64,000 nucleotides of DNA, taken from Cinnamomum chago (lineage: Eukaryota; Streptophyta; Magnoliopsida; Laurales; Lauraceae). Each line of letters begins with the position of its first letter. Position 1 is the stretch's first letter. Below, piece after piece: positions 9,536 through 51,132 of the stretch. Under the pieces are notes generated by a model. That model saw nothing but the letters and a program-made list of their open reading frames with translations, was not told the DNA's origin and did not search any database. The DNA lies in the NCBI GenBank assembly GCA_038049695.1, contig CP142456.1:74051422-74115421 (forward strand), given 5' to 3'. The position numbers and the translations under genes are program-made.

Positions 9536-9690
9536 CACTACAAAAAAAATGACTTTTAGTCTCGCTTTTAAAATGACCTTTTGTGTCGCTTTTACAATAA
9601 AGTGACACAGTATAGTCTGATGTGTCACTTTAGAGGAAGAGTAAACGAAGAGGAGGTTTGTTGTGTCACTTTTCCATATAACGCGACACA
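9536..9690. repeat. Left subterminal repeat region of the outer CACTA element
   Basis: Direct and inverted copies of a TGTGTCRCTTT motif alternate (for example 9590s, 9603-9611, 9629-9640, 9660-9671, 9683-9690). The right end at 30390-30691 has the same motif, typical of CACTA subterminal arrays. Confidence 0.8.
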
Positions 9691-9699
9691 TAGCTGTCG

Positions 9700-10146
9700 C
9701 TAAAGCCCTAACACCCCCCACCCCACCTTTACTTCCCACGTTTTTTTCCACTTTCCTTCCAACGTTTTTTTTTCCTCTTTTCCCTTTCCCCTTTTCCCCT
9801 CCCGCGCTGCGCTCGATCTGCTCTCCCGCCGCACCAGCGACGATTCCACCGGAGCCCACCTGTGCCGGAGATCCCTCCCTCCCTCTCCCTCTCCCTCTCC
9901 CTCTCCCTCTCCCCTCTCTCTCTGTGTGTCTCTCTCTGCACTATGCCGCCCTCCCGCTCGCCGGAGCCGCCACCGGCTCTCTCCCTCCCTCCCTCTCCCT
10001 CTCCCTCTCGATCTGCACTGTGCCGCCCTCCCGCGCGCCGGAGCCGCCACCGGTTCTCTCCGCCATTAAAACCTCGAAGACGAACAACAACTTCTGAAAC
10101 AAGCTTCTTTCCCTACGCTGAAGCTCTGCATCAAAATCATTTCCAG
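9700..10146 (+). promoter_or_regulatory. GC- and CT-rich leader, putative first exon ending in a splice donor
   Basis: This block is strikingly richer in C and G than the surrounding DNA: CCCTCC/CTCTCC runs at 9874-9930 and 9983-10010, and two copies of a CGCCGGAGCCGCCACCGG-like unit at 9959-9976 and 10034-10052. It ends with CATTTCCAG followed by GTACGTTAATG at 10147, a good plant donor. It looks like a plant 5' leader exon, either the element's own or captured. No ORF with credible protein character was found; open frames here are low-complexity. It would place + strand transcripts across the captured exons downstream. Confidence 0.45.
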
Positions 10147-13100
10147 GTACGTTAATGATCCATTGATTCCATTCCCACTTTCCAGTTCTTTCCAGATCTT
10201 GCATTTTATTTTATTTTATTTTTTGAAATGTAGTTTAGAGCTTCCAAGTGATCGTCATTGCAATCGATCTTTCCACCTTTTTTGTTTTTGTTGGAAAAGC
10301 TGAGTTCTTTCTTCTCTTTTTCTGAGATTTGGGTTATTGTTTTCTTTGGTTGTTCTTGTCTTAGTCAGTTATGTGATAGGTTTCTGTTGGAGAATCTTCT
10401 AGGTTTCTTCCCCCACTTTTTAGATTTTCATTATTTTCTTGGGCTGTTCTTGTTTTAGCAAATCTGGGTTTCTTGGGTTGTTCTCATTATAGTTTTCTGT
10501 TTCTTACTGATTACTTGGTGGGACTTAATGGAAAGTAACAACTTGATGTTCTCATGTTGAAAACAAGAAGGCGTTTGAAGATGGTTAAAGAAAAGGGCTT
10601 TGCCATAAAGTTGATTTTTTTCTTTTTATCATCTTCTTATGATATAGAAGGTGAGAAGAATTATTTTGGAACTCATCAACTGTTTCTTTTTTGCTGTAAA
10701 ACGTGCTGATTTTACCAAACTTGTTGAGAAAGCAAATAACAAAAAAAGTTGATGTTTTTGGGTTTCCTTTGCCTCTGTTTTTGAAGATATCTTAGTTGGT
10801 TATTCATTTCAAGGTATTCTGAATCACATTATCAAGCATAAACATTAAATACAACAAGTGGATATTTTGTTTGAGACATGTTTCCTAGGTTAGTTTCTCT
10901 GACAGATTATGTTATAGACATCATTCTGAGACGATCTAACAAAATAATAAGCTGTTTATTTATCGGATGCTGTAAAATCACTAATTTTTGTAGTTAGAGA
11001 TTGCTATGTGTGTATGTGTGAATTTGTTCTGAAGTAATTGTCTTTCCATTGAACCCCACCTGCCCCCTTCTGTGATCAATTTGATCCCTTCACATGTTTA
11101 AACCTTGTTAATCATCCCGGACCCTTTAAGCAAGTTTTTGCACCCATCCAGCTCTAACACCAAGGTTTTGGATGACTTTGAGGCCCTCAAGATAGTACAT
11201 CTCTTGATCGAAAGTTTCTCACTTTTTGAGTTTTTTCAGACGAGTAGGTTGCAAGGAGACCTTTCAAATCCCTATGCATTCCATTATTGTGCGGGTAAAA
11301 ATGAACCCAAAAGCCAGAAGATAGTTTCCCCTAGTCCCATAACTTTTCTCCTCTTGGATGTGTTTACTTACCATCTACTATTCTATTTTATGGGATATCT
11401 TTCATTGCATGTTATGATGATATGTTATGATGCCTGATTCATAGACTCTTATTACTGAAACTCTAATATGTTACTTGTCTGGATCTTTGTTACTTCATTG
11501 TAGTGAGATTTGATTTCTATTCTATAGAATCAAAGTTAGAATTCCACTTATGTTTTGCTTTCTCTACTTGTTTTACCCAAATGCTTTGGGTTATACTAGT
11601 TTGACTTGGCCAACTCAATTGAAAACTCTCTTAACAAAATAGTCTTTTAGAGTTTTATACCATTTTACATCCATGAGCTACATCTTTTCTCTGAAATATT
11701 AAATTTCCACCTTCTTAATCAAATAAATTCTTATTGTTTATAGAAAATGTCAATGATCACTCAAATTGTGGTTTTGCCACTTACTATTAAATTAGGATCT
11801 TTAGGACTTAAAGATTGTAAGCAACCTTAATCTATTACACTGGCATGATCTTTCACTCTTTCAACTCCTTTGATAAGCTCTCATTCAACAAATTATTGGA
11901 TCATGTTTGTTGTGCTTCTTTTGGGGTATTTATAGATGAGATAAAAATGAGCAATTCAACTTTATTCATTGTTCTCTGTTTCCTGGTCCTTAAGTTTATA
12001 GAGAACTCACACACACGCACACGCACACTCAAAGTCAAAAACACCAAGTGGCCATTACACTTCATTAATGTGATTATTGGTTCCACTAAATGGGATGATG
12101 ACAATGACAATTGTGGAAGAGGGTACCCTTGAGAGATGATATTGTGATAGACACTCATGAAAGGCAGGCATATGAGCAAGGAGATCGATTTAACTGCTTG
12201 ATTGGTGGTTTAGTGAAACTTGTTGCAATTACTTTTCCAAGCATGTTTGGAACTTGATGCTGTATGATCAAGTGTAAGTTCGATTAACAGCTTGCACTGG
12301 ATATAGAATAAAACAGGTTGAGAGTAATTTACCTTTTATCTGCTGTAAACGCGGTGGAAACTTTTATCTGCACACTTTCACATATTGACTGAACACAATG
12401 AACAATCAATATATTAGATTGTTGTGTAATGTTATCCCAGTACCAGATAGCTTACAGTTTCTACAAATGCATGCTAATAGAGATGATCCGCTAGTCCTTT
12501 TGCTCTACATCTCCCTTATTTTTTGTGCTCCATCAACTATATCACTGATGATTGCGGTTAGACTATTTCAGTTTTCAGACATGTACTTTGGTTATCATGA
12601 ACAATAGCCTTTGGAAGTTGGCCTCATGATGAGCCAATCATATTAATCAGTCTCTAAAATCTTTCCTATATTATTCAGTGTCTCTAAAATCTCTGCTTTC
12701 TTTTTCCATGTTATGGTGATGGCTATTTTCAATTGAATATGCAAAATGACCTAAATTTGGCTGTGTGTTCTTTGTTATTGTCTTATACTGTTTGATGGTT
12801 ATCTAGACATTGATCATGTCTCCTTTTATCTTTTCACTTTGGGAGGTGAGAATTTATCAAAGCTATAGCATTCTCATTGCCTTATTGTTTTACTATTTTC
12901 CTTTTCTATTATCAATTTATCATTTTCTCTTCATCCCTGTTTAAATTTTAAATTAGTCCCTATGTTGATTACTCTTCTTTTTTTATCCTGTTGTTTTGTT
13001 TGCTAGCACTTCGATCGGACTCACCTGAGGAGTAACTTCAGGAAGACATATAAGAAGGGTCATGGCTGCCTTGGGGAACTCAGTTCTATTTGTTTAGTTG

Positions 13101-13510
13101 TGCTTGATGTTGTCAGGATACTGTCATGGCCTGAAAATTTTTCAGACAATCTTATTTTGAGGTTGGTAATTAGATAATGACTATTATCACACTGAACTAA
13201 TTCAACTTCTTTCCTTGCCAACCAAATTTGGATGTTTTGCAAACCTTTGCTTGCATTTAAATAGCAGTAGATGGATATGTGCTTTCATTGGAAAACCATT
13301 AGTGTATCATACTCTGTATTTTTCTCTCCACCTGAAGGTGCATCATGCTGCCTTCTTCTCCAATTCCAATGGCTTAAATGGTAGCAGAACCATGGCCCTA
13401 TTTGAATTCTATCTTTCTTGTTTGGTTGATGGATTTCAAATTACTAAGGATGGAGGCATAGTGATAATGTCTTATATTTGCAAATATCAACATCCTGTTC
13501 ATGAGCATCC
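10147..13510. other. No recognised gene in the left arm of the outer CACTA element
   Basis: T-rich, intron-like sequence with short open frames (for example 11105-11437, 11845-12132, 13215-13553) lacking recognisable domains. Captured exons too short or diverged to recognise may be present; a possible one is around 13014-13140. Confidence 0.5.
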
Positions 13511-13565: not shown

Positions 13566-14149
13566 TCTTTAACAAATGCTTGCTGGGGCATATTTATTAT
13601 TATAAAGCATGATGATCTAGCATGCAGCCATTGCTTTTACCTCCTTTTTTAATAATTTTGTTGACTGCTTTTGGAAACAATATAACCTAATTCATACCTA
13701 ACTGATATATTCCCATTGATGCTTATCAACATCTATGCCTGCTTTTTTTTTTTTTTTTGCTACATTGTTGCTTTAGCTCATGCTCACATGCCTGCCACAC
13801 ACTCATGCATGCACAACATGTTCCTAACCAGCTGAAAACAGATGCCTGTTGCCTGCTTTTGCAGAATTGCTCTTTCCTTCTGGTTTTTTATCTTCTTGAA
13901 CCATATTTATGATTGTACCATATTGATCATAATATCCTTCATGTCTAAGGGCATGTTTGGATATCCCATGCATGGTAGGGAACTAGTAACTGGTGTTCTG
14001 TTCCTACGAAGTCAATTTTTTATGAGCATCTTAGGTTGACATTGGAGCTCATCAAACCCAATTTTAGGGCATAATTACTGGCTCGTACTGAGGAGATTGG
14101 TGTTGTACTGGTACTGCCAGATGCCAGCTTCTTTTGTTTTGGGTCAAGT
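13566..14149. other. Non-coding part of the outer CACTA element
   Basis: A/T-rich, with a poly-T run at 13744-13759. It ends with AGT (14147-14149), the left target duplication of the nested CACTA element. Confidence 0.5.
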
Positions 14150-14560
14150 CACTACAACAAAAATCATTTTTCGCGACAAATATTCCGCGACGTTTTGAGA
14201 TTTTGTCACTAAATGTTGCTTTTAGCGACGAAATATTCATCTTGTCGCGTAAAAAAAAACCGCAAATTATTTAGCGACGATAATTTTCAATTGTCGCTAA
14301 ATATTGTCGCAAAAACCTTGGCGCCAAGGAATGGAGTTGGCGCCATCTAGAGGTGAAGTTTTTCCGACAAAACTATTTATTTGGCGACGTTTTATTTTCG
14401 TCGGTAAATCTTTTGCACCATATTTTATTAAGAATTTTTCGCGACAAAAATATGTCACCGCATAAATTAATCCACGACGAAATTATTTCGTCACAAAATA
14501 CATCAAATTTGGGGTCGCGCGGGTCGTCTTCGCGGTTCATTTTTTAGCAATGTTGGGCGA
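14150..14560. repeat. Left subterminal repeats of the inner CACTA element
   Basis: About a dozen copies of TTTAGCGACGA, TTGTCGC and variants in both orientations (for example 14223-14232, 14271-14281, 14392-14399, 14566-14572). They are the counterpart of 24040-24698. Confidence 0.85.
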
Positions 14561-15508
14561 CGAAATGAAATCGCACATTGGACAGAACATAACCACATCG
14601 CAACTCCCTCTTTTTCATTTCTCTCAACGAAATCCAATCGCAGAAGATTTCTTCCTCTTTCATTTCTCTCAACGAGTCTCTTTTGCAGAGGATTTCTTCC
14701 TCTTCCTTAGATCTCAAAATCCAAGAGGTATTCTGGTTTTCCCTTCTTTCTCTGAAAATCTCTGGTTTTGTTTATGTGTAAAATTTCTTTTGGAGATACA
14801 TACGAATCGTGTACAGTGATGTTCTTCTTGTTAAGGTTCTGAGAAATCTTCACCCTGCAAGAAGAAGAAAGAGAAGAAAACCCTTCCCTCAAAGAGGCGA
14901 CAGCAAGAAGAAGAAGGAAAAAGAAGTAGAGAAGGGGAAACCTGTCTTTTGAGGTAAGTGTTTTCTCATTTCTATCTGAAACCTACTGTTTTTCTATGTT
15001 GGTTTCTTTTGATGTTGGTTTCGTTTGAAACAGTAACAAGATTTGTCTTTGTCTTTCTCTGTATTAGTGTATTGGTTTCGTTTATTGAGCAATGTCGATA
15101 TAGATGGTGAGAAATCCCTAAATCTGCTGGAACACCAAATCCCAGCCACCACCTCCTCACTGCCAGCAACCCAAGCATTGAAACCCTACACATCTGACCC
15201 ACTAATAGAAACAGAGTCATAAAATCGAAGCTCCTCCCTGGATTAGGTTAGTGGATGTGTTTTGACATGCATTTGGTTATTGATTTTCTATGATGCATTT
15301 TGTAGATGTTTGATGTTCTTCCATTCATGTGTTAAAAAAAAATACTCTCCTCTGCTTTCTAGTTGATTTGCTTTTTATACAAAATTTAGGGTTTTTCGAG
15401 TTTATCAGCAAATGGGTATATACATTGTGTTTGGTTTTCTACCGATTTTCCTTTCTTCTCTTAAATATATTGTGTTTTTTAGTATTTGATTTTTGATTTA
15501 TCAAACAG

Positions 15509-15690
15509 GTGTATCAGCAATCGATTGCTGTGACTTGCAATTTGGATGGGCCCAAGGTCAAATTTGCTCATCCAGATTCTGGATGATTCAGATGACCCAA
15601 TTACTCGGATTCTGGTGCTCATAGGGAATCTCAAGTCGGCGATGAATTGCAGCTACATCAAGGACTATGAGTTTGTCGCAGTCTTTGACA
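15509..15690 (+). pseudogene. Captured, internally deleted fragment of a CSLA/CSLC-type glycosyltransferase 2
   Basis: After an AG acceptor at 15507-15508, one frame gives VYQQSIAVTCNLDGPK. A second frame gives LIQILDDSDDP and then GNLKSAMNCSYIKDYEFVAV. These are consecutive landmarks of plant cellulose-synthase-like A/C enzymes (Golgi GT2; mannan or xyloglucan backbone synthesis), including the DDSDD metal/UDP-binding region. The roughly 35 residues normally between DDSDDP and GNLKSA are missing, a frameshift separates the first two blocks, and the next catalytic Asp motif is replaced (VFDRF). It is clearly non-functional and lies in the inner CACTA element. Confidence 0.85.
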
Positions 15691-18600
15691 GATTTCTGAC
15701 ACTTGTCTGATTTCTTAAAGAGAAAAAAACATTCCCTATTTCAAGGTATATTTGATACCTCTGTGCAATTTACAGATTTTGTGAAGTGGGGTGTTCCTAA
15801 TTCTTACCATGTGCACTAATATTTTTCTTGAAAAGCAATTGAATTGATACATTTTTTAAAATTCTGACATCAATCACTATCTTGAATTGGAAGTTTGATG
15901 AAAACTTGGACATCCTTGGGTAATCTGCCATCTTGTCATGCTTATAGCTTTTCCGAATCACAAATGTTTATTTGATGTACCATTCTCTGTAAACTGAGAT
16001 TTCAAATGGGTTTTTATGGGGTTGATGAGATTTGATGCAGATTGCTTAAATGTCCAATTAGGGTTTTTGGGATTGGGATATTGGATTGAGATTTGGGTTC
16101 CAGTTTTGGCTTCACTTTCTAATGAAAATCCTATGCCTAATCTAAGCCTTTGAGAACCAAACAAGATGAAACATACTACAATCTTAAACCAAGGTTCATA
16201 ATTCAGTCGAAATTTCTAATGAACTAATTATATATGATTAGTAGTACTTGTTCAGTCGAAATCTCTAACTGCACTACATAGATCCATTGGCTTTCTTTGT
16301 CCCACTTTGTCTTGTCTAGGTACTCAGTGAACTTGGTGTTTAAAGTGAAAACATAAATATGAATCATGAAGGGGATGGATGCTTAAAGTGAAAACTATGA
16401 TGGATTCTTCAAGCACACAAATTAGCATCTTAATATTTTACAGTTGCAGCACATATTGTTCATAGTGAAAATAGAAACATCACCTTTTTGTTTGATACAG
16501 CCATACAGGACACATATCACCTTATGGTTGTATTGAAGCCTTGAATTGCTCATTTGATATGAACCAAAACTCATTATCTGTTATGTTTTTTATATTTACT
16601 TTTTAAGTACTCATTTCCCTTCCTTCCCACTGGTTAACTTCTGTAATTTCAGTGCCTCTAGTCGTCTCACAAGTTCAGCGCCATTGTAATTTCAGAATCC
16701 TCATATTTATTTTCTTTAGGACGTTGAGTTTCTTCTTCTCTTTTTCCCATTGTCTTCATATCGCTTCAGGGGCAGTCTTTTTCTCTGTTCATATTTTGAT
16801 CTTAACATCGTTAATGGTAAGCATATTCTCTAAACATTTGATATCTACTTTTGGTTTTAGAATATGTGATCATTTTTTGTGTTGTACTTTTATATATGGT
16901 ATATGTTGTAGTTATCTTTGTTGTGTGGAATTATTGTAGTCATCTGGTTTCTTGAGTTACACAAGTTGGTTTAATTATGTTTTATTTTTATTTTTTAAAA
17001 TGCTCTTTCGTAGAGGGGGACTTGTTCTAGTTGGGTGGTGTAACTATGCATTGGCTTTTGCCTAATGCATAGTACATAGATAATGTTGCATACTTTTCAT
17101 ATTTTATGTTTTTTGAAACCAGATATGAAATCAAGATTTGTATTTTTAAAAGTTACTATCAGTTGTTTTTAATGTTATTATCAAATCATTATTCATATTG
17201 ATAACAAGAATATTTCAGTCTTTTCCCATAATAATTACACCCACACAACATTCTTTCACTGTTGACACTTTATTAGAAGCCACTTCAAACAACCCAAGGA
17301 AAAATAGAACTCTTAAGGAGCTGGTCTTACCCCATCTTCCACCTAAAAAGGGACACATCCACCCTCCTAAAAAGGGACACATCTTTTTCTTCTGTTATAC
17401 ATTTGTTTATTTTTATTAAATATGGAATTCTCTAACCTCAAAGCTTCACAAACAGATACTCAGATTTATTTTGAGATTATCCAGTGGATTATTTGGGTTG
17501 ACCTAATGATGGAACCTGGCTAAGATGAAAAAAAAAAAAAACAATTGGGTTTGGACCTAATTTTTCAAATGAACTCAAATTCCAAACTTGACTCTCAGTA
17601 TCATTCATTTCCTCAAACTGTTAAACTAAATGTTTGACAAAAACAGAGCAAAAGATTGGACTCATCCCATGGAAACGGTGGGACCAACAATAAAATAATT
17701 GACAGTCAGCACTGGCACATGGGGAGTAATCTCTCCCCCACTAGTTCAGCAAAAGAAGACATAAATAGTATGTGTATGTATGTATGTATGGGTATCATTA
17801 GAAGACAAAAGGACTAAAACAATTACAAGTATTTTATCATATCTTTTACCATTGGAGTGCATGGACAACATGATATGCATTTGGATGGAGGTGTTGAAAG
17901 GAATTTTAGTGGAAGGGGATGTTTCCAAACACAATCTTGTAAGATTGTCTTGTCTAAGGTACCTGCCAAATGATACATAGAACTTGCATGTGTGTGTTGG
18001 GCATTGTTGTTCTGATTCCATCCTTGTGTGATATCTCTTTGGCTGGCATGAGGATATACAAGAGTCTTTTCAACTTTGCAATGTTGTTGTAGTACAAGTA
18101 ATCACTGATAAGCTGGCAGTTGTGATGCTGGTTGGAAGGGTGTTGGGGGGTAAAGGATTGAATTTTGTTTTCTAAGAAGTTACGGCTCTTTCGGATGGTA
18201 CAGAGAACTCTGCAACCTGAATGCTTGGAAGTGAGGCACATACATTTATGCCAACTGGGAAAACATGAGCATGAGCATGGGATCCAAGGTTGGCACTGGT
18301 GGCCATGTCATGGCAGGATTAATGGTCAGGTTCTTAGGTTTTGGTTTCACCTAACTAGAATTTACATATCAGGATTTTAAGGCCACCTTTGTGTGAACAG
18401 GGGATTTTGCGCTTGGTAATTTTTAATGTAGCCCACTCTTCCGTTGTTTAGTGCTCTTTGTAGAATAGCATAGTATTGTTGAATTAACAGTAGCTTTTAT
18501 ATGAATGCTGAATTTGGAGCTAAATGCAATATGGTCTTTCTTAGTCATCTTGTGGCGAAACGTGAAAAGGAAAGAGAGGAAACATGTGCATGAAGCCATA

Positions 18601-20847
18601 TGGTTTCAGTCAATCTAGTGGTCATTTATACTCTTTCCATCATGATAATATGATATTTACACACACATACATACACTCATTAGAATTTTTAGGTGCACAG
18701 TGTGCATGGTTCTTACAATGCACACCTCCTAGTGGGGCCCTCCTGATCACCTATTCGAATGAACCACACACATACACCCTGCCAGTCACTGATCCCTTGA
18801 TTATTATGCTGTAGTGGTATTTAGGGACAGTTTTTTCATGTAATTCAATACATAGGAATCAATTCATCTTGTGGTTTTTTTGTGGCTTGTTAGAACACTG
18901 AGATGAAGATTTTGACTTTACTCTTTTTTTTTTGTCATGATCATCTGGTGTGTTCAGCAGATGCTGAATTGTATGACTATAATGAAGAGAAGGTATGTTA
19001 TAATGCACCATAAGTATAAGATAATTGATAATTTATAGTCTATACCTTCACTAATAATCCCTACATGTATTGGCAAGAGAACAGGGGCAGTCCTTGAGCT
19101 CTGCTGATGATTTTTACAAGAACCTGTTGTCAAGAGCTACTATAAGAATCATGTCAAGGTACTGAGAAGATTGAATGTGAATGCGTTTGCTTTTATTTCT
19201 TTTGCTAATTTATTGTTCTGTTACCTGTGAATGAGATTTATTGCTTTTTATTGTCATTATTTCCTTCTTACATCTTTCTGCAAAAGGGCCTCAACTGCTT
19301 CTCAGTAATTGTAACCTGCAAAAAGAAATAAGAAACGCAGCAGTTAGCACCTGCTGCTAACCGCCAGTGCTTTTTCTGTTCTTCCTGTATGTTGTGGCCC
19401 TATTGTTCATGAAAATTAACAGGCCTTTCTTCATTGGTAAGCAAGAGAAACTGCGTTGCTTACATATTTGAAAATGAAGAATAGAGATATCAACTTCCTC
19501 ATGGGAATTATCATTGGAGCAGGGATCCAGGTTAGCTCTACCCACTCCTGAAACTGCATTCAATATTCTGAATAAATGTTATAATGAGAATAGAGCCCAA
19601 CTTAAATGATGGAATCTATGTAGCTAGGAATTTGTTCTAAAAAAATAGAAAGTTCTTCATGTTGGTCCTGAATTAGTGGCTTATTAAATTATGGTTACAA
19701 ATAAAAAACAGAAATGCTATGGATCACAGAAAAATTGGTGTGGCATGTACATCTTGGATGAAATGCAGAGACTATACATTTGAAGCAGCACAGAACCTTA
19801 GTTGGATATATGGATCTCCTTATCTATATACATTTATCTATACCATCTGATTGCCCAAACTCAATTTCATGTATCACATCTTTAGTGTTAACATGTGTAC
19901 CCACATTTAACACATGGTTCCCAATGCTGTCACTTCATATCTACATAGAATACATGGTTACCATGTGATAGTTATCTGGTGCTAATCCTAGTCTTGAGAT
20001 AATGTGATTCCAAACTGTGTTCATGGTCCAGGTCAAATGTAAAAGTGTTCCACATCTGTGATCTCATGACAACTTCCACTATCTTCATATTATTCACCAC
20101 AGATTCGGTTATGGAATCACATTAACTCATTGCCAGCTGATGAATCCATGGCCAATAGATTTCATACAATGAAAATCTAAAATAAATTAATTCATGATTC
20201 AGATCGGTTAATCATTTGGATTACACATCTCATTGATGAATCGCATTGATCAGTCAGTTGAAAATTAGAGTGAGATGAGTTCTAAAATAATTTGTAATCA
20301 AACAATTCTCATATATCAAAAAAGGACCCACAGATTCCAAGTTTCCAAATCATCATGACTAATAGAAATTTTGGTTTTTCTAAATATCTGACGAGTTGGT
20401 GTTGATATAAGATATTTTGTGTACTTATACAAACATGGCAAATGTGTACATTCATTTGCACATAAGGGCCTCATATTGTTGCTTTCAATGGAGCTTAATT
20501 TCCACTTGTTCAAAATAATATAATTGAGTGAGATTATTCATTGACAGTGATCATGCTCTTTTTTGTTACTCTTTTTTTACAATTTGCAGTATTATCTTGT
20601 TTCCTATAGCGAAAACTCTCTATACTACCGAGTGGTTTATACATTTTGTGGATGGTTTTGTTCTCTCTGATCTACACTCAACTTGGGATTAATATCTTCG
20701 GTAAGTTCCATCTTCATCTCTTCATGTAAAAAACCAGTCATTCATTTCATTTTGCTGCTTACTCTCTCTCTCTCTCTGTCTCTGGTGCCTTTTGCTTTAG
20801 ACTTACCAAAATTTTATTTTGTTGCTTTATTTGCTTTTATTTTGCAG
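15691..20847. other. No recognised gene in the inner CACTA element
   Basis: About 5 kb of T-rich, intron-like sequence. Short putative exons flanked by splice-like sites (18958-18996 ending GAAGAGAAG; 19467-19530 encoding a short hydrophobic stretch) could not be assigned. Poly-A and poly-T runs are present at 17529-17541 and 18926-18934. Confidence 0.45.
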
Positions 20848-21057: not shown

Positions 21058-22542
21058 GTAATATAAATGAGCATATCCGTTAAAATTGGAACAAAATTGT
21101 TTTTCGTAACCCGCATATTTTCTGTTAATCACTGTTTGAGTTACATGAGATGTTGTATATTTGGTTCTGTTTGAGTTAAATAACTTGTTTGAGTTAACCA
21201 GAAGCGTGGTGTACTTACCAAATGGAAAAAGGACAAAGTAAAAGAAAATGGTCTGTGGATATTTTCTGTTAATTGTTTGTACTTTGTAGTATATGGAATA
21301 TGAACTGTGGACATTAGTTGTGGCACAATTGTATTAGGTTCTTCTTGGAGTGACTGTATCCTATCTTGGTGTGCATTGCTCTGGCTGAATCAAATTAAAT
21401 GCTTGTTACATCCCTTTTGATCATATGTGGCTACTGCACCAGGTTGACAAAGGTGAGCCTGCAAGTTTTTCCACTAGTTTTGATATTTTATTCACTTTTT
21501 TTTTTAAATTATTGTGAAAGAAGCTATGGATTTTTTTTCCTGATCTGGTGGTACTGTTAGTTTTCATTTTTTTTCCTGATTTGTGAAGGGATTTGACATT
21601 GGATTTTCTTTTATGTATTTATTTTTTAATGATATTTTTTAAGTATTCATTGCTCTTACCTTTCATAGAAATGATAAGATTATTTATAAATGGTTGCTCA
21701 CAGTTATGTCAATGTTGAGAGGCCATTATATCATTTCCCATGTTAGAGTTTCCTATGTATTTAGTCAACATTAACTTCTATATGTAATCAACTATGCACA
21801 TGATCTTTGGTGCAGTTACTAATGTGAAGCTGGAAGTTAGTTTATTTTTCTCAATTATTACTTTTCAAAAATTGTTTCTGATCTTTAATGTTGTACTGGC
21901 GCGGAGTCCATCCTTTCCTGTAGTGGCGGTATTTGCATAAGATGTGAGCAATGATTATGTATAGCATATGGCCTCGTGATTATGTATACCTGTTCTTATC
22001 CATTACAATTAGTCATAATTAACTGCAGTTTTATACTAACAAGTCAATAAATTGTAGAAGCCTTCTCTTTATGTTCCTTCTCTGTTTCTTCCCCATCTTC
22101 ATTTTCTTGAGGGCTTGGGGCCTTTTTCTTTATCAATTTTTTAGTTTACCCTGATCTCTTGGGGCTGGACTGTTAGAAACTTTAACTTATGGCCCTGTAC
22201 CTCATTATTACCTAGTGTTTACCTCGCATGTTCTATTGTTGCGTTGTTGACGACGACGACAACGACAACATCAATGTTAGAAATTATAACATTTTGTTTT
22301 CTCTGTTTTAAATTTTACTCTTGTGAGTTCATTGCTTGATTAATGCAATTCGATTTAGATTCCCACATAATTTTTTTTTTAATTTTAATTTTTTCTCATT
22401 CTACTCTAGTCTTTCCCAGATAGCAACATAGATACCATAACTGAATTTTTTTTTTGGACACACATATATAGCTCATAAATGGATTCAATGCATTTGTTTC
22501 TATTGCACTGTTTTCAATTTGTGACTTGTGTCAATCATCCAG
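21058..22542. other. Intron-like DNA between captured exons
   Basis: T-rich sequence with several T8-T13 runs. No ORF of note was found. A short GAC/GTT trinucleotide run lies at 22240-22270. Confidence 0.5.
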
Positions 22543-23432
22543 GCATCGTTGTGGACTTGTTTTCTGATGGAAAAGTCTTACCACAGTTGCAGGCGGTGCG
22601 CATTACTGAATTTTGATTAACCATACAGATCATATGCTTGTGTCAGGTCTCCTTTAGTTTAAATATGGTATTTCCTATGAAATAGTATCATTACAAACTA
22701 ACTGCATGATCAAATCCCAAAAGGTTTTGATTATCAATTTATATAGAAGAAATCTTCTTTATCAACCAGTTCTCCATTGAAGTGGACAGTCTAACATGAT
22801 TAGGTCAAATTCCTTTGACTACTGTTGATGTTTTATCTTTTGGGTCCTATTTAATACTCTTATCCTTTTTATTGACTAAAATTTTTATTGTTACCAATAC
22901 CCAAAAAAAAAAAAATCAACAAAACCTTCTATGTATTTGATCAGTTTTAGTTTCAGTTTCATTAACAATTCATGATTCTGGGTTACATGAGCATGGCTAT
23001 TAGTATTGATAAATAAATGGTATTCTAGGATCTATTTATTCTTGTCCTCTTTTGATTATCATGCTGGTTCTTTTAAAGTTACATTTTGTTTAATCCTCAT
23101 GTGTTTTTTGTTTATTTATGCATCTCTGCTCTGTTTATTCAGCTACCTTTTATATTTTAATGCTGTTTACCTTGCTTAACTATGTTTAAAAGATCGATAG
23201 TTTCTCTAAAGTTTGTGGCTGCATATTCTTGTATGTGTTTTCTGATTGCACATCTAAGGCTGCAACATGGTTGGAACTTAATGAAAAGTTGATGACCCAT
23301 GGGCGTATAATGGTGAATTGTGGCGGGACCCATGCCGAAGCAGCCAAAGCTGGGGGAGTAGTCTATTCAAATGTTAGCTCCTGGATACAGAATTCTACCA
23401 TTAAGGCATTGTGCAAAGCATTTCCAAAAAAT
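22543..23432 (+). pseudogene. Captured two-exon fragment of a spermidine-synthase-like SAM-dependent methyltransferase
   Basis: Exon a (22543-about 22595, after CATCCAG, donor GTGCGC) reads GIVVDLFSDGKVLPQLQ. Exon b (23259-23432, after ATCTAAG, donor GTAAGT) reads AATWLELNEKLMTHGRIMVN, then CGG and NSTIKALCKAFPKN. The order 'VVDLF.DGKV...LQ / ATWLEL...RL.P.GR.MVNCGG' is that of a plant SAM-methyltransferase-like family with a spermidine-synthase fold. The two exons join without loss of frame. The N-terminal SAM-binding part and the C-terminus are absent. Family assignment is from memory of the pattern and less certain than for TBP or UPF1. Confidence 0.6.
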
Positions 23433-24039
23433 GTAAGTTACTCCTTACAGTCAATTAAATCTTAACTCCTTTGATACATGACCCTAGTTTGTGATCTTGA
23501 ATCAACGGTTTGTGATCTTGAATCAACTGTTTAGGCTCAAGTGCACTTTTATTTTTTAATTTTCTCAGGATTTTATTTTGTTGCACTTACTTTGCTTTTG
23601 ATTCCAATGTTTAATTCCTAACAAATTTTTTTTTTTTTTACCACAGGTTGGGACTGAAGATCAATGTAATAGAGGCCAATTGCTTGAACATCTTTTTGTT
23701 TTTCATAAGAATATTGTACTTACACTATTTTGGATGCTACATTTTTACTTGAATTAGTAACGACAATGTGGCTAAGCTTGTGGGTCGTATTTAATAGTTA
23801 TATGTTTCCTAATATGTTGAAAGAGCATGTTTTGTACATTTTCATTAGTTAAATGAAGATACTTTATTGTACATTTTGTTTGAGTTGAATGGCCATGTTT
23901 TATTGTACATTTTGTTTTTGTTGAATGTGAAGGTTTTATTATACATTTTATTTTAGTTGAATGAGCAGGTTTTATTACATTCAGCGTAAAAGAGGTTTTT
24001 GAGGTAGCATGTGGTAATTTAAAAAAAATATATTATTTT
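23433..24039. other. Non-coding, with imperfect TTTTATTGTACATTTTGTTT repeats
   Basis: Between about 23830 and 23980 a unit of roughly 47 bp (GTTGAATG..C.TGTTTTATTGTACATT) recurs three to four times in diverged form. The remainder is A/T-rich. Confidence 0.5.
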
Positions 24040-24698
24040 TAGCAACGAATTTTATTCGTCTCCTAAAAGGAATAAATATATCCCCGACGTATATAATTTG
24101 TCGCCTAAGAGAAATTGTGGCAAGGTTAAATATTGGGCGAAATGTCTACAAACTATGCGCGGCAAAACTAATTCGTCACCTATTATAATTTATGGCAATT
24201 CATGCACTATTTGGCGACAATAAAGTTTTGTCGGTAAAAAATTATAATTCAGCGACGACTCCATTTTGTCGCCAAATTCCTTTTTCACCATTTTTTATCC
24301 ATTTTCTCGTAATGAATTATGGACATTTGGCGACAAAAAATATCATTTTTGCCGACATAATGCGTTGTTGTAGAAAATTGATATTTGGCGACGATAATGT
24401 GTTGTCGCAGAAAATCATTTTAGCGACGATAATGTGTTGTCGTAGAAAATTGATATTTAGCGACGATAATGGGTTGTCGCGGAAAATTGATATTTAGCGA
24501 CGATATGGAGTTGTCGCAAAAAATGTATATTTAGCGACGATTAATTCTGATCGTCTGCAAAAACAATCTGATCGTCCGACACGTAATGGGCGACGAACGG
24601 GCGACGAAACCATTTTCGTCGCAGAATATATTATGCGACGATTTTGTGATTTTCTGCGACAAATATTTACGTCGCGAAAAATGATTTTTGTTGTAGTG
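24040..24698. repeat. Right subterminal repeat array of the inner CACTA element
   Basis: Tandem 32-35 bp units with the core TTTAGCGACGATAATG followed by TTGTCGC run from about 24380 to 24545. More scattered copies lie on either side. The last 28 bp are the inverted terminal repeat. Confidence 0.9.
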
Positions 24699-25131
24699 AG
24701 TGGCTCTTATTATTTCCTTGGGATGTGAAAAACTATTGCTGGCCTAATGCAGAGTCCCAGGGGCCAAGATCTAGCTTGACTTGGGATGTGAAATAGTGTT
24801 TGCGTGTGAACTTGAGAGCAAGAGGTAGCTTGACTTGAGCTTTGCTTGAACATTAAACAAGCTACCTTGATCTATAGCCAAGCTGAACTAACCCCAGCCT
24901 GAGCATGGCTTGAATTAAGTTGAGCTTGGCTTGATAGTACTAATTGATCTCAAGCTCAAGCTCTAGTGCAAGCTTTACTAGAAATAAGGCCCAACAGTGC
25001 AATGTTGTACATCTACTTTGCAATGCATATTGAGTTTGAGCTTGAGTCAAACTCAACTCAAAGATTACCAAATACTGAAACGTTTTCTTCTTGGTACCAT
25101 TTACATGACATGAGAGTTATTAGATAACCAC

Positions 25132-25165
<34 letters not shown>

Positions 25166-25703
25166 AGACCTGTGTATGGATACGGGATATCCCAAAATCA
25201 ACCTAATTGGGTCTTATTAGATGTATGTACTGAGGCATTGAAGATCAATGATGAAAGAAGTGTTAGAAGTAATATATATTTTGTATTAAATCATTCTTCA
25301 AAATGCAATTGTCCAATGTGATCCGTGGACATTTTTCTCGGCCTTTGTTTTGTCCACTTCTCATTTGAAGACCCTAAGCTTCTTTAAATTGCTTGAAAAC
25401 TTAGATGCTTAATGCGTTCATCTTCTTTATCTGATTACTTTTGCTCATATCTCTATTTATTTGTGGATTTCCCTCTATCTCTCTCTCTAAACCAGGATTC
25501 CAATGGTCTTTGAACTGCTAGTGTTTCAATTGCTCTTTCTCTAGTGACAAAATGTTTTCTCTTTAACATGAATCCTTTAATGATTATAAATTTATCCCAA
25601 AACTACTTGTGGTTGTGTCACATTGAATGATGACTAAAGAGCTCCTAAATCTTAGCTGTACAGAAAGTTTCTAGTCTGACCATTATTACCTTGTTTTTCC
25701 CAG
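24699..25703. other. Outer CACTA element, non-coding; carries one copy of a 73-bp repeat and an (AG)n tract
   Basis: AGT at 24699-24701 is the right target duplication of the inner element. 24792-24864 is identical to 30215-30287. An (AG)n run occupies about 25132-25162. GCTTGA/AGCTTG words are over-represented at 24770-24980. No ORF is supported. Confidence 0.6.
24792..24864 (+). repeat. 73-bp direct repeat (copy 1; copy 2 at 30215-30287)
   Basis: The two copies, AATAGTGTTTGCGTGTGAAC through to CATTAAACAAGCTA, are identical by eye over 73 bp and 5.4 kb apart in the outer CACTA element. This suggests a recent internal duplication or the flank of a repair event. Confidence 0.9.
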
Positions 25704-25749
25704 TATGCTCGGATTATTCAAAAACTTGGCTTTCCTGCTAAATTCAAGG

Positions 25750-25794
<45 letters not shown>

Positions 25795-26120
25795 GATGCA
25801 TTCCTTATTTGAACGCATATTCTGTGTTGGTTCTTCTAACAGTATGAACCAGAACTATTCCCTGGTCTGATATATCGAATGAAACAACCGAAGATAGTGT
25901 TGCTTATATTTGTATCTGGCAAGATCGTTCTTACAGGAGCCAAGGTCACACATTCATAACTCTTTGGTTTTTTAATCTTTGGTCACATTGTCCTTTTCTT
26001 CTTCAAACTTTGATTGTTATCTTCAATTTTTTTAATCCTTCTTCAGGTAAGAGACGAGACTTACACGGCCTTTGAGAACATATATCCTGTCCTTACAGAG
26101 TTCAGGAAAAGCCAACAATG
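25704..26120 (+). pseudogene. TBP: Captured C-terminal exons of TATA-binding protein (TBP), lacking one exon
   Basis: There are three exons with GT-AG borders. 25704-25748 reads YARIIQKLGFPAKFK. 25843-25944 reads [16 protein letters not shown] and [18 protein letters not shown]. 26047-26120 reads [20 protein letters not shown]. These are essentially identical to plant TBP, the core promoter-binding subunit of TFIID. The exon normally between the first two (the start of the second saddle repeat, beginning DFKIQNIVGS) is absent, although the flanking exons are phase-compatible. The intron at 25749-25842 is only 94 bp, beginning with (TC)n(AC)n. The first saddle half and the true C-terminal stop are missing. 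It lies in the outer CACTA element. Confidence 0.95.
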
Positions 26121-26481
26121 GTATGTGACTTTACTTTAGATGGTGCTTATTAATGAAATTTGTTATTCATATTAGTTTTAAGAATTACTTATTTGAAGGT
26201 ATTTTTTCCTCTCTGGATAACAAGAAGGATTCATTAAAGATGGAAACATGGAAGTTTGTGAAAGAGAATAGGAATTAGTCTTTGTATATGAGCAGTATAT
26301 CGATACAAATAAAAGCAAGAAAGAAAAAAAGAAGATTACAACAATTGGACTAAAGATTCATTATTATTCCTTGCTATGGAAGCATGGAAGCAAATCTTCC
26401 TTTTTATCTCCTCCCCTCAATATATGATGAATCTCAATTTGTAAAGGTTTACTGTTTACATAATGATTTAATCTTGTTCAG
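26121..26481. other. Intron-like DNA between TBP and an unassigned exon
   Basis: Purine-rich in the middle, with no ORF. It ends with ATCTTGTTCAG, a plausible acceptor. Confidence 0.5.
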
Positions 26482-26629
26482 GATCATTCAAAAGGGTGAG
26501 CAAAGCCAGATACATGCTAGCTATATTACATACAAGATACAAGACCTGTTTAAGTCAAGAGATGGCAACTACAGTGCTTTCGCTCCAATATTGTCACAGA
26601 TCAGAAGCCATCATCCCATGAACCCATGA
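26482..26629 (+). pseudogene. Unassigned captured terminal exon (about 48 codons)
   Basis: After ATCTTGTTCAG the frame reads IIQKGEQSQIHASYITYKIQ, DLFKSRDGNYSAFAPILSQI, then RSHHPMNP and a stop TGA at 26627-26629. The composition is that of a real soluble protein, and the exon has an acceptor and its own stop, so it looks like the last exon of a host gene. I do not recognise the parent gene. The neighbours on both sides (TBP, UPF1) are captured fragments, which supports the same origin. Confidence 0.5.
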
Positions 26630-27321
26630 AACCCTTTCATCGGCTTAGCCACCTAATGACTTGAGTGCTGGCCTCGCGCACAGCTTCATCCTTTCTGTCA
26701 ACATATTCTGGAAAGTTAAATAATTCATCTCCAACCAAATTGGCTCGTGTTGCATTGAAAATATTCTTATGCCCTGAATGGGTTTTATCCCAATGGAAAT
26801 TTTGCTGAATTGACCAATTTTATTAGTATTATACATCTATCTGATGTCGCACAATTTGATGAGGGCCCTGCTTGATACTTGGCAGGGAGTGGTTTTTGAG
26901 TTGTTGGCAAAATTAAGAAGGTAGGCTTACAGGTAGCATTAGGATCCAAGCTCCATAGTTAAAAATAAGTGACGAGTTCATGTTGGATTGTGTAGCAAAT
27001 GGTTGCTGAGTTGTGGTTGAAGAAAACAATGGTGTTTGTTGAAATGATGGTGGTTTGCATTATGAAATGAATAGAGATGATGTGATGGTAAATGTTAGTG
27101 TGGAGAGTTAGAATGAGGTAGAATTAGTGGCAGAGGTAGAAGACAATCAAGGTCTCAAATTACACTTGTGAATGGTGTGGAATCTGAAGATTTGATGTGT
27201 AGTAGTACAAAAAGTATAGGATTCAAAACCATCCATTACTCACTCTGCGTGTGTATGTGCGTCTTCTCTTTCCTCCTTTAATTGACTGTATGCTTATTTA
27301 TAATCAAAATTTCAAGTTCAG
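26630..27321. other. No recognised gene
   Basis: A/T-rich sequence with GTTG/ATGG-rich imperfect repeats around 26980-27180. It ends with the acceptor TTCAAGTTCAG before the UPF1-like exon. Confidence 0.5.
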
Positions 27322-27472
27322 TATCGCATGCATCCTTGCCTTTCAGAATTTCCTTCTAACAGCTTCTATGAGGGCACACTGCAAAATGGAGTGACCATCA
27401 ATGAGAGGCAATCAACTGGGATTGATTTTCCATGGCCTGTGCCGAACCGTCCCATGTTTTTTTTATGTTCAG
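27322..27472 (+). pseudogene. UPF1: Captured exon of the RNA helicase UPF1
   Basis: After TTCAAGTTCAG the exon reads [20 protein letters not shown], then [20 protein letters not shown] and PNRPMFF. This is the helicase superfamily-1 motif (QYRMHP) region of UPF1, the nonsense-mediated decay ATPase. It ends at a GTATTT donor (27473). The last codons are out of phase: in plant UPF1 the exon ends ...MFFYVQ, and here an eight-T run with one extra T shifts the final three codons. Otherwise it is nearly unchanged, implying recent capture. It lies in the outer CACTA element. Confidence 0.93.
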
Positions 27473-28205
27473 GTATTTTTGAAACTGTTAGTATTGGGTA
27501 TCTTTTGCTTTTGGGCATTTTGCACTCCTTAGGCTCAATGATTTTTCTTTGGTTCAAACTAGTGCCATGTTAGTAGGGGACCTTGTGTTACAAAAGGTGT
27601 TAGCTGTGGGATGTAATGTATACACCATTTGTTTTGACATAGTAACATAAAAGGATACTAAATTTGATGTAGAACCCATATAAAATCAAATCAAACTAAA
27701 ATATACTGTAGATGAATTATTCATGTATGAAAATATGTTAGATCTGAACTCATTATCTGTTCACTGTTGTCAAATGAGGGAGGTTCAAAGAGTTAGAATT
27801 TCATTGATCTTAATTAACTCATCCGCTTGTATGCCAATTGGCAAAAGATCAAAAAGTTAGCATTTCCTTATCTGGGAGTCTTTAGAACATCTTTCATCCA
27901 AGTCCTTTAGATACACAGTTGATGTAATTGAACCATGGGCCACCCAAATACTGAGTCCAGTGCGTTTGTAAATTTGCCGATGCTGATGACCTGATACTTC
28001 CTCATTTTCCCTTGTTTAATTCTAATGAACATACAATTTTTTATGCAGTAAGTTTATTTCCTTACCTTTCATTATCATCATTTGGCTGCCAGGTGAATGC
28101 CTACTGGTGTTGCTATGTCAGACAACACCTGTCTATGTTAGATGTAGATACCTGTCCTTGGTAGAAATAAATTCATGCTATACTCATTGTTAGCTTGTTC
28201 TGCAG
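27473..28205. other. Intron-like DNA between captured UPF1 and MetRS exons
   Basis: No ORF with protein character; A/T-rich sequence ending TTGTTCTGCAG. Confidence 0.5.
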
Positions 28206-28783
28206 GATTAGGCTATGATTCTACCATTCCTGATGCTCTAGATGCAGAGTCGCATCCCTTAACTAAGAGCCTAGCAGAGAAAGTCAGTAAATATGTTGAT
28301 CAGTATCTTGAAGCTATGGAGAAGGTAATTCACTGTATCCTTGAATAATATGATATTCATAGATGATAAGCTTTTCAGTTTGTACATATAGCCAGAAAAA
28401 TGAGTAGCTTGGATTGGTGATTTTACTCAATGAAATCACTCCTAACAGTCGTTTGTATGTATTGCTCGACCTAGGCTAAGCTAAAACAAGGTCTCAGAAC
28501 TGCAATGAGCATTTCCAGTGAGGGCAATTCATATTTACAAGTAATATACGTCTCCCCCACCCCACCCCCCGCCCCCCATCACAGAGTGTTATTTGTTTGT
28601 TAATTTCTTTATCATGCAACTGAACTGTAACATTTTACCCTTTTAATGTCTAAAACATAGGACAGTCAATTTTGGAGACTTTACAAGGAAGACCAATCTG
28701 CTTGCTCCATTGTGCTGAGGACTTCAATTGGGCTCGTGTATCTTCTAGCTTCTCTGCTAGAACCATTTATGCCATCTTTTTCT
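28206..28783 (+). pseudogene. Captured three-exon fragment of cytosolic methionyl-tRNA synthetase
   Basis: Exon 1 (28206-28324) reads YDSTIPDALDAESHPLTKSL, then AEKVSKYVDQYLEAMEK. Exon 2 (28475-28540) reads AKLKQGLRTAMSISSEGNSY. Exon 3 (28661-about 28783) reads DSQFWRLYKEDQSACSIVLR and LVYLLASLLEPFMPSFSV. These are the anticodon-binding helix bundle of plant MetRS, in order and in phase, with GT-AG introns of 150 and 120 bp. The catalytic Rossmann domain is not present. The end of exon 3 departs from the family at SFSVAVIHL and no clear donor follows. It lies in the outer CACTA element, + strand. Confidence 0.88.
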
Positions 28784-28866
28784 GTTGCAGTAATACATCT
28801 GGTTCCATTTTTCTATGGTTGCTCAGTAATACACCTTTATTAGTTTAATTATCCACTGATCTGCAG

Positions 28867-29034
28867 GTTAGAAAAGAAAATTGCTCAGACAAATGCAAAG
28901 ATTGAGAAAATGGAGTTCGATATGAAGATCAAAGAGGATTTAAAGACTGTAGCGTTGGGCACATCAAAGATCAACTACCTTGATCCTAGGATATCAGTTG
29001 CATTGTGCAATTATTGGACCAAATATGAACTAGG
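28867..29034 (+). pseudogene. TOP1: Captured C-terminal exon of DNA topoisomerase I containing the catalytic Tyr motif
   Basis: After CTGCAG the exon reads [40 protein letters not shown] and [17 protein letters not shown] is the active-site tyrosine signature of type IB topoisomerases. After LC the sequence NYWTKYELG departs from the family, so the extreme C-terminus is lost. It is not a functional enzyme because the core domain is absent. It lies only about 85 bp after the MetRS fragment, so the junction between the two captured genes is inside 28784-28866. Confidence 0.93.
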
Positions 29035-29515
29035 GTTAGTATGTTGACATTTTCTGCTTATAGAATCTTCAGATTCCTCTTTGTTCCATAATTACATCTA
29101 AACCATTTTTGTATATTACTTGAAGTCTTGAACTGAGCATGTGTGGCCCCGGTGATTATTTAGAATCCACATGGTTGCCCTTCTTATTTTTTTTTCTTTC
29201 CTTTTTTTTTTATCCTTTCCCGTTTTGCTTTAATGATTGGACCCCACTTGGGCTGAATTAACGTTTCTTTTCCCTTCTTTGTTTGTGCAGTTATTGTAGA
29301 TGACTATTAATTCCATTCTCATGTTCCTATTGTCTTAAACTTTCAAGTTTAATTAAGTGTTAGGATTTGATAGTGTTCTATTACACTTGCTTATAAGTAG
29401 TCTGATTTTTGTGAGGTGTTTTGGTTTGGCAATGTTCAATTAAGTCTTGCTTACACTTGATGCACTATGGTGGTTTTGGCGTTTGCTTATTCTGTTTGCA
29501 CCGTGTTGATTGCAG
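29035..29515. other. Non-coding DNA between TOP1 and exportin-T fragments
   Basis: A/T-rich, with poly-T runs. It ends GTGTTGATTGCAG, the acceptor for the next exon. Confidence 0.5.
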
Positions 29516-29680
29516 CCGAAAGAAATGGTTGATTTTCTTTTACTAATCAATCAGCTCATAAGCAAATTTGATACTTCGGTGGGTGATATTTTGGAGGAAA
29601 TATTTCCTACTATTGCACGCAGAGCTCTCAACATGCTTCCAAGAGAGGCATTTCCGTCAGGACCTGGAAGTAACACCAAG
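29516..29680 (+). pseudogene. Captured exon of exportin-T (PAUSED-type tRNA exportin)
   Basis: A 165-bp exon with AG acceptor and GTATGA donor encodes PKEMVDFLLLINQLISKFDT, then SVGDILEEIFPTIARRALNM and LPREAFPSGPGSNTK. It matches the central HEAT-repeat part of plant exportin-T, a karyopherin that exports tRNA from the nucleus; the NILPRDAFPSGPGSNTEE segment is distinctive. The frame is open throughout. It is the last captured exon recognised before the right end of the outer CACTA element. Confidence 0.85.
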
Positions 29681-30389
29681 GTATGAGGATTTAGTTATTT
29701 GTCAGTATGATTTATAAAATGCTCGTTTTATTAGGAAAATCATACTTTCGTCAAATGTATTAATGCCCATTTTTTTTTATTATATCCCATTTTTATGACA
29801 GAATTATCACCCCTTTTTTTTTCATTTTTAATCGTCAATCCGATTCACCTGAATGCTGTAGGTTTAGACATAAAAAAAAAAGGAAATTTCGAAAGGATTT
29901 GATGGTGGGTTAAGCAGCAGGTTTAGACATTTATCTTATAATATGTTGGTCATAATATTGGACATTGCCTCATAACGTATTATTGGAAATTTACCTAGAG
30001 GTTATGTTGGTCTGTCATTCCTCCATTATTTTACATGAAGGTGTCAGTTTCATGGTTTGTGGAACTTTTATTTGTCGTTCCTAAATTTGTTATGTCTTCT
30101 CATATCATTGATTGATTAGATTCATGTAGAAATGGTTGTGATAGTGTTGGTTTTTTATCAAGTACTTGTAAACTTGTGATTTGTTATAATTTTCTCCCTG
30201 AAACTGTAGAATCTAATAGTGTTTGCGTGTGAACTTGAGAGCAAGAGGTAGCTTGACTTGAGCTTTGCTTGAACATTAAACAAGCTATTATTGCATTTTT
30301 ATTGAAAGTGTATCATACTGCAGCATATTATTAGTAATGTATATATTACATTTTTTTTTTAAAAATGGATGGTATCTCGCTTCTATGGA
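29681..30389. other. Non-coding right arm of the outer CACTA element
   Basis: A/T-rich, with poly-T and poly-A runs. It contains copy 2 of the 73-bp repeat at 30215-30287. Confidence 0.5.
30215..30287 (+). repeat. 73-bp direct repeat (copy 2; copy 1 at 24792-24864)
   Basis: Identical by eye to copy 1 over the full 73 bp; the flanking sequence differs on both sides. Confidence 0.9.
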
Positions 30390-30691
30390 AACTGTCACAA
30401 CTGATGACTACTTGTGTCACTTTTGGTCCGAAAACAACATATTGATCATCTTTCTTGTGATGCTTTTAAGTTATTTCAGTGTCACTTTTGGGTTTAAAGT
30501 GACACAAGTAACCATTTTTTTGTGTCACTTTGATAATAGAAACTGACACAACAAATGTATTTCTTGAGACGCTTTTACGAACTTTTAGTGACGCTGGCAG
30601 ATAAGACGCTTGCATAGTAATCAGAAAAGCGACACAAACCACTTTTTAAGACACTTTAAAAGTGACTCATTAAGACATTTTTTTTGTAGTG
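30390..30691. repeat. Right subterminal repeat region and end of the outer CACTA element
   Basis: Copies of TGTGTCACTTT and the inverse AAGTGACACAA recur (30412-30422, 30479-30488, 30498-30507, 30521-30531, 30543-30551, 30627-30637). The element ends TTTTTTTTGTAGTG and is followed by ATA. Confidence 0.85.
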
Positions 30692-51007: not shown

Positions 51008-51132
51008 GAACCCAAATTGATTCTCTAAAAGTTTGTTGTTCTTCTTAGTCTTCTCTCAATAACTCTCTCTCATAATTTCATCGTATGGCTCATCAATTTA
51101 ATCCCGCGACAGTTCGCACAGTTCTGAATATC

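Follow-up and report, generated by a model that had tools for sequence, protein, structure and literature searches.

A stretch of 64,000 nucleotides from Cinnamomum chago (contig CP142456.1, positions 74,051,422 to 74,115,421), referred to here as the window, contains between positions 9536 and 30691 two nested Pack-CACTA transposons loaded with fragments of host genes. Very probably, this region is best explained as a non-autonomous Pack-CACTA of about 10.6 kb, interrupted by a 10.5-kb Pack-CACTA with different ends, whose cargo may have been built up stepwise. The nested structure is firm, while the route by which the cargo was captured is less sure. A preliminary description, made from the letters of the window, had treated the 21 kb as a single CACTA element. 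That reading was rejected because a complete second CACTA element, which it had overlooked, lies at 14150-24698, so the cargo is split between an outer element of 10.6 kb and an inner one of 10.5 kb.

Structure and classification of the two elements

The outer element consists of 9536-14149 and 24699-30691. Its ends were exact when read directly, with CACTACAAAAAAAATGAC starting at 9536 and TTTTTTTTGTAGTG finishing at 30691, and a repeat scan gave terminal arms of 40 nt that are 80% complementary. The 3-bp target-site duplication ATA/ATA flanks it at 9533-9535 and 30692-30694, and on both the ends and the duplication the preliminary description was correct. Repeats of GTGTCACTTT and GYGACAC cluster inside both ends (9583-9690 and 30414-30635), with a single stray copy at 25615.

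The nested element spans 10,549 bp (14150-24698). Its ends, CACTACAACAAAAATC..., differ from those of the outer element and form perfect inverted repeats of 28 bp; the arms returned by the repeat scan (14149-14177 and 24671-24699) include one flanking base. An AGT/AGT target-site duplication borders the element, and a subterminal motif different from the outer one, GCGACGA/GCGACAA, was found near both of its ends. The insert is absent from four sister copies of the outer element (L015, L016, L031 and L032, located on C8, C6 and at two places on C1). These copies continue uninterrupted across the insertion point, reading GGGTCAAGCACTGGCTC, and the occupied site in the window reads GGGTCAAGT-element-AGTGGCTC. 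The 5' 3.2 kb of the nested element occurs in four other places at 98% identity. Matches to parts of it in other places were at 94-100% identity in most cases, with one at 86% (14150-24149 searched, best 36 of 635 candidates). No whole copy was listed, but the window's own match was not listed either, so the search is uninformative on whole copies.

Both elements have the features of the CACTA (En/Spm) superfamily. Their terminal inverted repeats start with CACTA, and duplications of 3 bp were found around the outer element in the window (ATA/ATA), around its sister copies H (ATA/ATA) and D (CCT/CCT), and around the nested element (AGT/AGT). Subterminal repeats are clustered at both ends of each, a clustering judged without a computed chance expectation; single strays of these repeats occur elsewhere.

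The search for other copies proposed in the preliminary description was productive. The first 665 bases of the outer element matched 11 other places over their full length at 83-98% identity (best 40 of 857 candidates), and 26046-30691, whole or minus one base, recurred in five other places at 98-99% (best 40 of 752 candidates). Many further places hold parts of 26046-30691 in a different order. The flanking DNA differs among the sister copies, one of which, sister D, occupies C1:22348808-22357373. The presence of multiple copies in differing flanks, a feature of Pack-CACTAs, indicates mobility. Two further such features are DNA fragments of host genes whose parents lie elsewhere in the genome and the lack of a transposase of its own: no Pfam transposase was found in the three + frames of 9536-30691, the three - frames of 9536-28600 and one of the three - frames of 28500-30691. 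By every defining feature tested the element is a Pack-CACTA, with one sister copy, C, failing on the duplication. Pack-CACTAs are a known kind of element, and multi-gene ones are already known. The preliminary description thus recognized the kind, a CACTA carrying intron-bearing fragments of unrelated host genes, and missed the two-element structure.

A search for Transposase_21 elsewhere in the genome gave matches above the cut-off for all of the best 150 of 1,658 candidates, many in frames of 700-850 codons. Both elements were presumably moved in trans by these CACTA transposases of the genome. Helitrons have 5'-TC...CTRR-3' ends and make no target-site duplication; a Helitron was rejected on the CACTA ends and 3-bp duplications. 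More broadly, we give almost no credence to the element being a Helitron or Pack-MULE instead of a CACTA, since the CACTA ends and 3-bp duplications recur in the window, H and D, even though gene-fragment cargo is well known in those two groups (PMC13317346).

Captured gene fragments and their source loci

Four genes were firmly identified in the outer element: TBP (Pfam E 3.2e-15), UPF1 (PDB match 'Regulator of nonsense transcripts 1', E 7.4e-18), topoisomerase I (TOP1; Pfam E 2.4e-14) and methionyl-tRNA synthetase (MetRS). For the last, the anticodon-binding domain gave a Pfam E of 7.1e-5 for the exon alone, with 23.2 bits against a cut-off of 23.5. All four had been named in the preliminary description. 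The nested element firmly adds two genes that it had not listed, MAP65-5 and an S-adenosylmethionine-dependent methyltransferase or spermidine-synthase-like gene. The latter is present in two pieces with 90% identity to a Persea protein. The MAP65 exon had no match in Pfam, and PDB gave weak histone-like matches to the MAP65 peptide; the name MAP65-5 rests on protein similarity (97% to Persea and Cinnamomum proteins), not on Pfam or PDB. All six firmly named pieces lie on the + strand, and this common orientation across two elements is only suggestive.

The search for parent genes, likewise proposed earlier, located the sources of three fragments in the same genome: TBP on C5 (75.224-75.232 Mb), UPF1 on C6 (2.916-2.924 Mb) and MetRS on C8 (6.98 Mb). 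With introns included, identity to the gene was 98.8% for MetRS (1,094 aligned bases), 98.3% for UPF1 (418 aligned bases), and 97.7 and 96.9% for TBP (172 and 389 aligned bases). Another UPF1 locus, on C3, matched at 86%, against the 98% of the C6 source. Since the alignments run through introns, these pieces were captured at the DNA level, and their identities to the genes indicate that capture was recent. DNA-level alignment covers TBP, UPF1 and MetRS; TOP1, the proteasome beta5 scrap described below, MAP65-5 and the methyltransferase-like gene are known from protein similarity.

Dispersal of the source genes on C5, C6 and C8 led us to reject a gene cluster. The fragments are clean and the named ones share the + strand, as they would in a true gene cluster or in a chance row of pseudogenes between unrelated CACTA ends. 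Such an arrangement is nevertheless hardly credible, because the sources are unlinked and the block recurs with shared ends in differing flanks.

The near-intact reading frames attributed to the fragments in the preliminary description were overstated. One TBP exon, expected at about 25808, is missing from the TBP fragment, whose end, to about 27199, matches DNA some 2.5 kb further along the C5 TBP locus, after a gap. The UPF1 exon, with 157 bases versus 156 in the gene, contains one additional base close to its end, both in the window copy and in 11 of the 12 other loci; the twelfth lacked a matching donor. At the acceptor of this exon the window copy reads AA, and the 12 other loci (10 distinct copies) all read AG. 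Separately, seven copies forming one branch of the family (L010, L012, L013, L014, L021, L027 and L036) carry about 570 bp of extra sequence inside the TBP fragment at 26047; neither the window copy nor the TBP gene has it.

Two other proposed genes fared less well. The fragment described as probably proteasome beta5 is reduced to a tentative scrap of about 16 codons ending at 13561: a tblastn search of the 21 kb alone, with a beta5 protein as query, gave E 1.3e-4, and the best PDB match was 7qve, 'Proteasome subunit beta type-5' (E 0.0097). Exportin-T was rejected; it had no Pfam match in the three + frames of the 21 kb, the three - frames to 28600 or one - frame of 28500-30691, and a best E of 1.0 with an exportin-T protein as query, in scans that might overlook an exon if it were short or divergent. 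Scanned against PDB, the three + frames of 9536-24534 and one + frame of 24600-30689 yielded no matches. On the - strand, a single Pfam match to Transmemb_17 fell below the cut-off (E 0.027).

Other sequences related to the cargo are scattered through the genome. The N-terminal exons of the TOP1 gene lie at C3:127.697-127.702 Mb. TOP1 N-terminal exons were also found within a repeat, at least 3.2 kb long and 99.3-99.5% identical among four places (L055-L058, on C3, C8, C4 and C4), which is perhaps a separate high-copy carrier of gene fragments. In a search with the TOP1 N-domain, 159 matches to exons were obtained, frequently as two at one place (best 150 of 241 candidates). On C11 (37086625-37360951), six TBP-fragment matches, each with two internal TAA stops, lie tens of kb apart, possibly by local amplification of one carrier.

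Junctions and the assembly of the cargo

Sister H (C12:25753390-25760636, 7,247 bp) is a shorter relative of the outer element. It matches 9536-14148 piecewise, with about 0.8 kb extra near 13561, and continues with 25250-25577, then with some 450 bp that L029, L030 and L034 share, and then with the common 3' end, which is reached within at most 0.9 kb past 25577. H lacks the TBP-UPF1-MetRS-TOP1 cassette, because the roughly 600 bp of H between the parts matching 14148 and 25250 are too short to hold it.

A separate family (L022, L023 and L025) has the same MetRS/TOP1 join, and its member L022 holds 2.57 kb of MetRS. After 29732 this family has at least 1.5 kb without counterpart in the window. 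Because the join is common to a family with this much MetRS, the two fragments probably arrived as a ready-made cassette, or were passed on as one. At the left border, the window, L010 and L028 read GAAAATA followed by MetRS from 27736. In copies at C11:21.262-21.269, C1:59.53-59.54 and C4:94.447-94.456 Mb the match stops at 27736, and GAAAATAT is followed directly by CACTACAAGAAAAGAATCCAGC, which is the end of a third family of CACTA elements. Four places match 27604-27736 alone; the three that were read, on C11, C1 and C4, all show this terminus, and the fourth is a weaker match on C6. Past the right border, at 29732, the sequence continues with TATTAGG, so that the far side of the cassette resumes with TAT, as expected if an insertion there had made a 3-bp duplication. 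The coincidence on the left, of a CACTA terminus with the start of MetRS, is strong; that on the right involves three bases, with a chance of about 1 in 64.

These borders suggest a route in which a gene-carrying CACTA inserts into another CACTA, the inner element loses its ends through aberrant excision and repair, and what it carried thereby becomes a fixed part of the outer one. Microhomology and template-switching repair would add other pieces. On this view a gene-carrying CACTA would have inserted at TAT; its far end would have disappeared, and in the lineage of the window its near end as well, and the present nested element at 14150-24698 would be the next piece of cargo, caught at an early stage. 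The family may accordingly hold successive stages of the process, namely no cassette (H), a terminus at the border (C1, C4 and C11), no terminus (the window) and a fresh nested carrier (14150-24698), although we would hold this series as a possibility somewhat short of probable. The general proposition, that serial nesting is how CACTA elements come to hold cargo from several genes, the inner element losing first one end and then the other, is put forward in the same tentative spirit. If a third CACTA carried MetRS-TOP1, the MetRS-TOP1 family (C10:49.55, C6:30.30 and C1:74.43 Mb) would show CACTACAAGAAAAG ends.

Two other routes deserve consideration. Short overlaps and filler copied from nearby sequence are a mark of template-switching end repair. 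Reading the bases at the joins gave exact overlaps of 3 bp between TBP and UPF1 and of 2 bp between UPF1 and the next module, and these, with the filler at the MetRS/TOP1 join, suggest such repair. By this means, repair of an excision gap could have copied unlinked gene pieces straight in, without nested carriers. The overlaps, the resemblance of the 7-nt filler to nearby sequence, the kept introns and the possible beta5 scrap at a module boundary are all consistent with it. As the sole route we consider it doubtful, because the join shared with the 2.57-kb-MetRS family indicates that part of the cargo probably arrived joined, and because a CACTA terminus marks the left border of MetRS-TOP1 in three copies.

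The second route is fusion, in which two related elements, inserted near each other, lose the ends that face one another and become one, enclosing the intervening DNA; in the present case an H-like element would be the left parent, and the enclosed DNA would be the TBP locus. Some stretches of 24792-25577, internal in the window, are 3'-subterminal in H, L029, L030 and L034, and the 73 bp of 24792-24864 are repeated exactly at 30215-30287, which suggests that two element types were joined. A fusion model has been published (PMC8903248, PMC13317346). Fusion would account for TBP, but not for the unlinked UPF1 and MetRS, nor for the CACTA terminus at the MetRS junction, and we regard it as unlikely to be the whole explanation, although it quite possibly supplied one of the steps. 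All three processes may have contributed; our preference is for nested insertion followed by loss of the inner ends.

Several observations weigh against this reading. A clean empty nested site would be GGGTCAAGTGGCTC, but L015, L016, L031 and L032 carry three extra bases: they have AAGCACTGG, two changes from a doubled AGT, where AAGTGG is expected of a pristine site. The extra bases are possibly an excision footprint, or one side may have changed. Sister C (C1:75500699-75509363) has the imperfect flanks CTG/TTG. The C1, C4 and C11 copies with the terminus begin MetRS only at 28785, so their history is more complex, and the window, L010 and L028 have MetRS, not the terminus, at 27736. In the MetRS-TOP1 family at C10, no matching terminus was found within 1 kb further, which leaves a third CACTA family carrying MetRS a conjecture. 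As to the donors, the TBP gene matches at 96%, less closely than TBP stretches at C3:96.95, C12:43.09 and C5:55.69 Mb (98-99%), and seven further places (C8, C3, C7, C5, C2, C1 and C6) hold the UPF1 stretch at 96-98%. Because such carriers match as closely as the genes or closer, the immediate donors may have been other repeats and not the genes directly. The seven UPF1 matches end at the borders of the UPF1 piece (27190-27608 in the window), and these places are perhaps another UPF1 carrier.

Near the 5' end of the outer element, a GC-rich stretch (9700-10150), also present in other copies, contains a 74-bp unit twice (84%) followed by a donor-like site, CAG|GTACGTT. This stretch could serve as a leader exon for chimeric transcripts. 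Around the CACTA pair lie retroelement-like frames, named by eye, of copia type (2419-4938), LINE type (50429-51699) and gypsy type (60719-63999), all on the - strand. An uninterrupted frame of 830 codons at 53930-56419 (-) is 69% identical to a Tetracentron protein and was called a hAT-type transposase from the Pfam accessions of that protein (PF14291, PF27073 and PF05699) and the name of the match.

Table 1. Features of the outer and nested Pack-CACTA elements in window coordinates
Feature	Position	Strand	Basis or remark
Left target-site duplication of outer element, ATA	9533..9535	.	Flank read
Outer 5' terminal arm CACTACAAAAAAAATGAC..., 40 nt	9536..9575	+	Repeat scan
Outer 5' subterminal GTGTCACTTT / GYGACAC repeats	9576..9690	.	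Motif scan
Outer 5' half, mosaic of modules with no gene assigned, common to various sister copies	9691..13510	+	Breaks near 10936, 11119, 11340, 11966
Tentative proteasome beta5 scrap, about 16 codons	13511..13561	+	Module boundary (13517 and 13561 are break points in other copies)
Left target-site duplication of nested element, AGT	14147..14149	.	Flank read
Nested Pack-CACTA, 10,549 bp	14150..24698	+	Inverted ends, AGT/AGT, absence from four sister copies
MAP65-5 fragment	20845..21060	+	97% to Persea and Cinnamomum proteins
Methyltransferase/spermidine-synthase-like, first piece	22536..22592	+	Placed on window
Methyltransferase/spermidine-synthase-like, second piece	23241..23441 (start approximate)	+	90% to Persea protein, placed on window
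Right target-site duplication of nested element, AGT	24699..24701	.	Flank read
Outer module, parts 3'-subterminal in H, L029, L030, L034	24702..25577	+	Sister-copy and repeat comparison
TBP-locus fragment with introns (gene on C5)	25577..27199	+	Exons 25704-25748, 25843-25944, 26047-26120
UPF1 fragment (gene on C6), single exon and flanking introns	27190..27608	+	Alignment to gene
Short stretch ending GAAAATA	27604..27735	+	Third CACTA terminus CACTACAAGAAAAGAATCC directly after it in three sister copies
MetRS fragment with introns (gene on C8)	27736..28826	+	Exons about 28206-28324, 28661-28790
Filler, 7 nt, at MetRS/TOP1 join	28827..28833	+	CAGTAATACA occurs at the join and again about 40 nt upstream
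TOP1 exon (28867-29010) with the DNA after it	28834..29732	+	Pfam; ends at junction, then TATTAGG
Outer 3' module with subterminal repeats	29733..30651	+	Copy comparison, motif scan
Outer 3' terminal arm ending TTTTTTTTGTAGTG	30652..30691	-	Repeat scan, end read
Right target-site duplication of outer element, ATA	30692..30694	.	Flank read

Comparison with known gene-capturing elements

The interest of the system lies in a graded series of sister copies within one genome, with source genes only 1-3% diverged. Such a family makes the capture route testable, junction by junction and copy by copy. Serial nesting, if true, would explain how fragments of unlinked genes meet in one DNA transposon. 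No function for the plant is evident, though chimeric transcripts are possible by analogy with soybean. Pack-MULEs and maize Helitrons have ends and transposition machinery unlike those of CACTA elements. They likewise capture and multiply host gene fragments, and a 2026 review allows that an undiscovered mechanism might remain by which DNA transposons capture unlinked gene fragments (PMC13317346). Our search of the open-access literature on CACTA gene capture found no account of nested Pack-CACTAs losing their ends, which is not proof of absence.

The Pack-CACTAs of Arabidopsis, rice and maize are of the same kind as the elements described here. In maize, most of the Pack-TYPE elements, Pack-CACTAs most of all, contain DNA from several loci, and their size correlates with the number of loci. 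The published route for them is fusion of neighbouring insertions, while here there are also signs of nested insertion and loss of inner ends (PMC8903248). In Chenopodium, CACTA elements have captured host gene fragments too, and the authors caution against taking nested elements for a new one. The fragments described are few (for example, 80 bp of AP2) and lie within elements that have transposase domains, unlike the case here (PMC8978399).

The closest known case that we found is Tgm-Express1 of soybean, a 5.7-kb CACTA in a gene intron, which holds five unrelated gene fragments whose exons are spliced into chimeric transcripts (PMC1947982). Given this element and the maize Pack-CACTAs with several loci (PMC8903248), the word 'exceptional', which the preliminary description had applied to the cargo, is too strong. 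Tgm-Express1 and the outer element both belong to the CACTA superfamily and carry intron-bearing fragments of unrelated host genes. The Cinnamomum element, known from its DNA alone, differs in its size of 10.6 kb, in the second gene-carrying CACTA nested inside it, and in its many rearranged sister copies.

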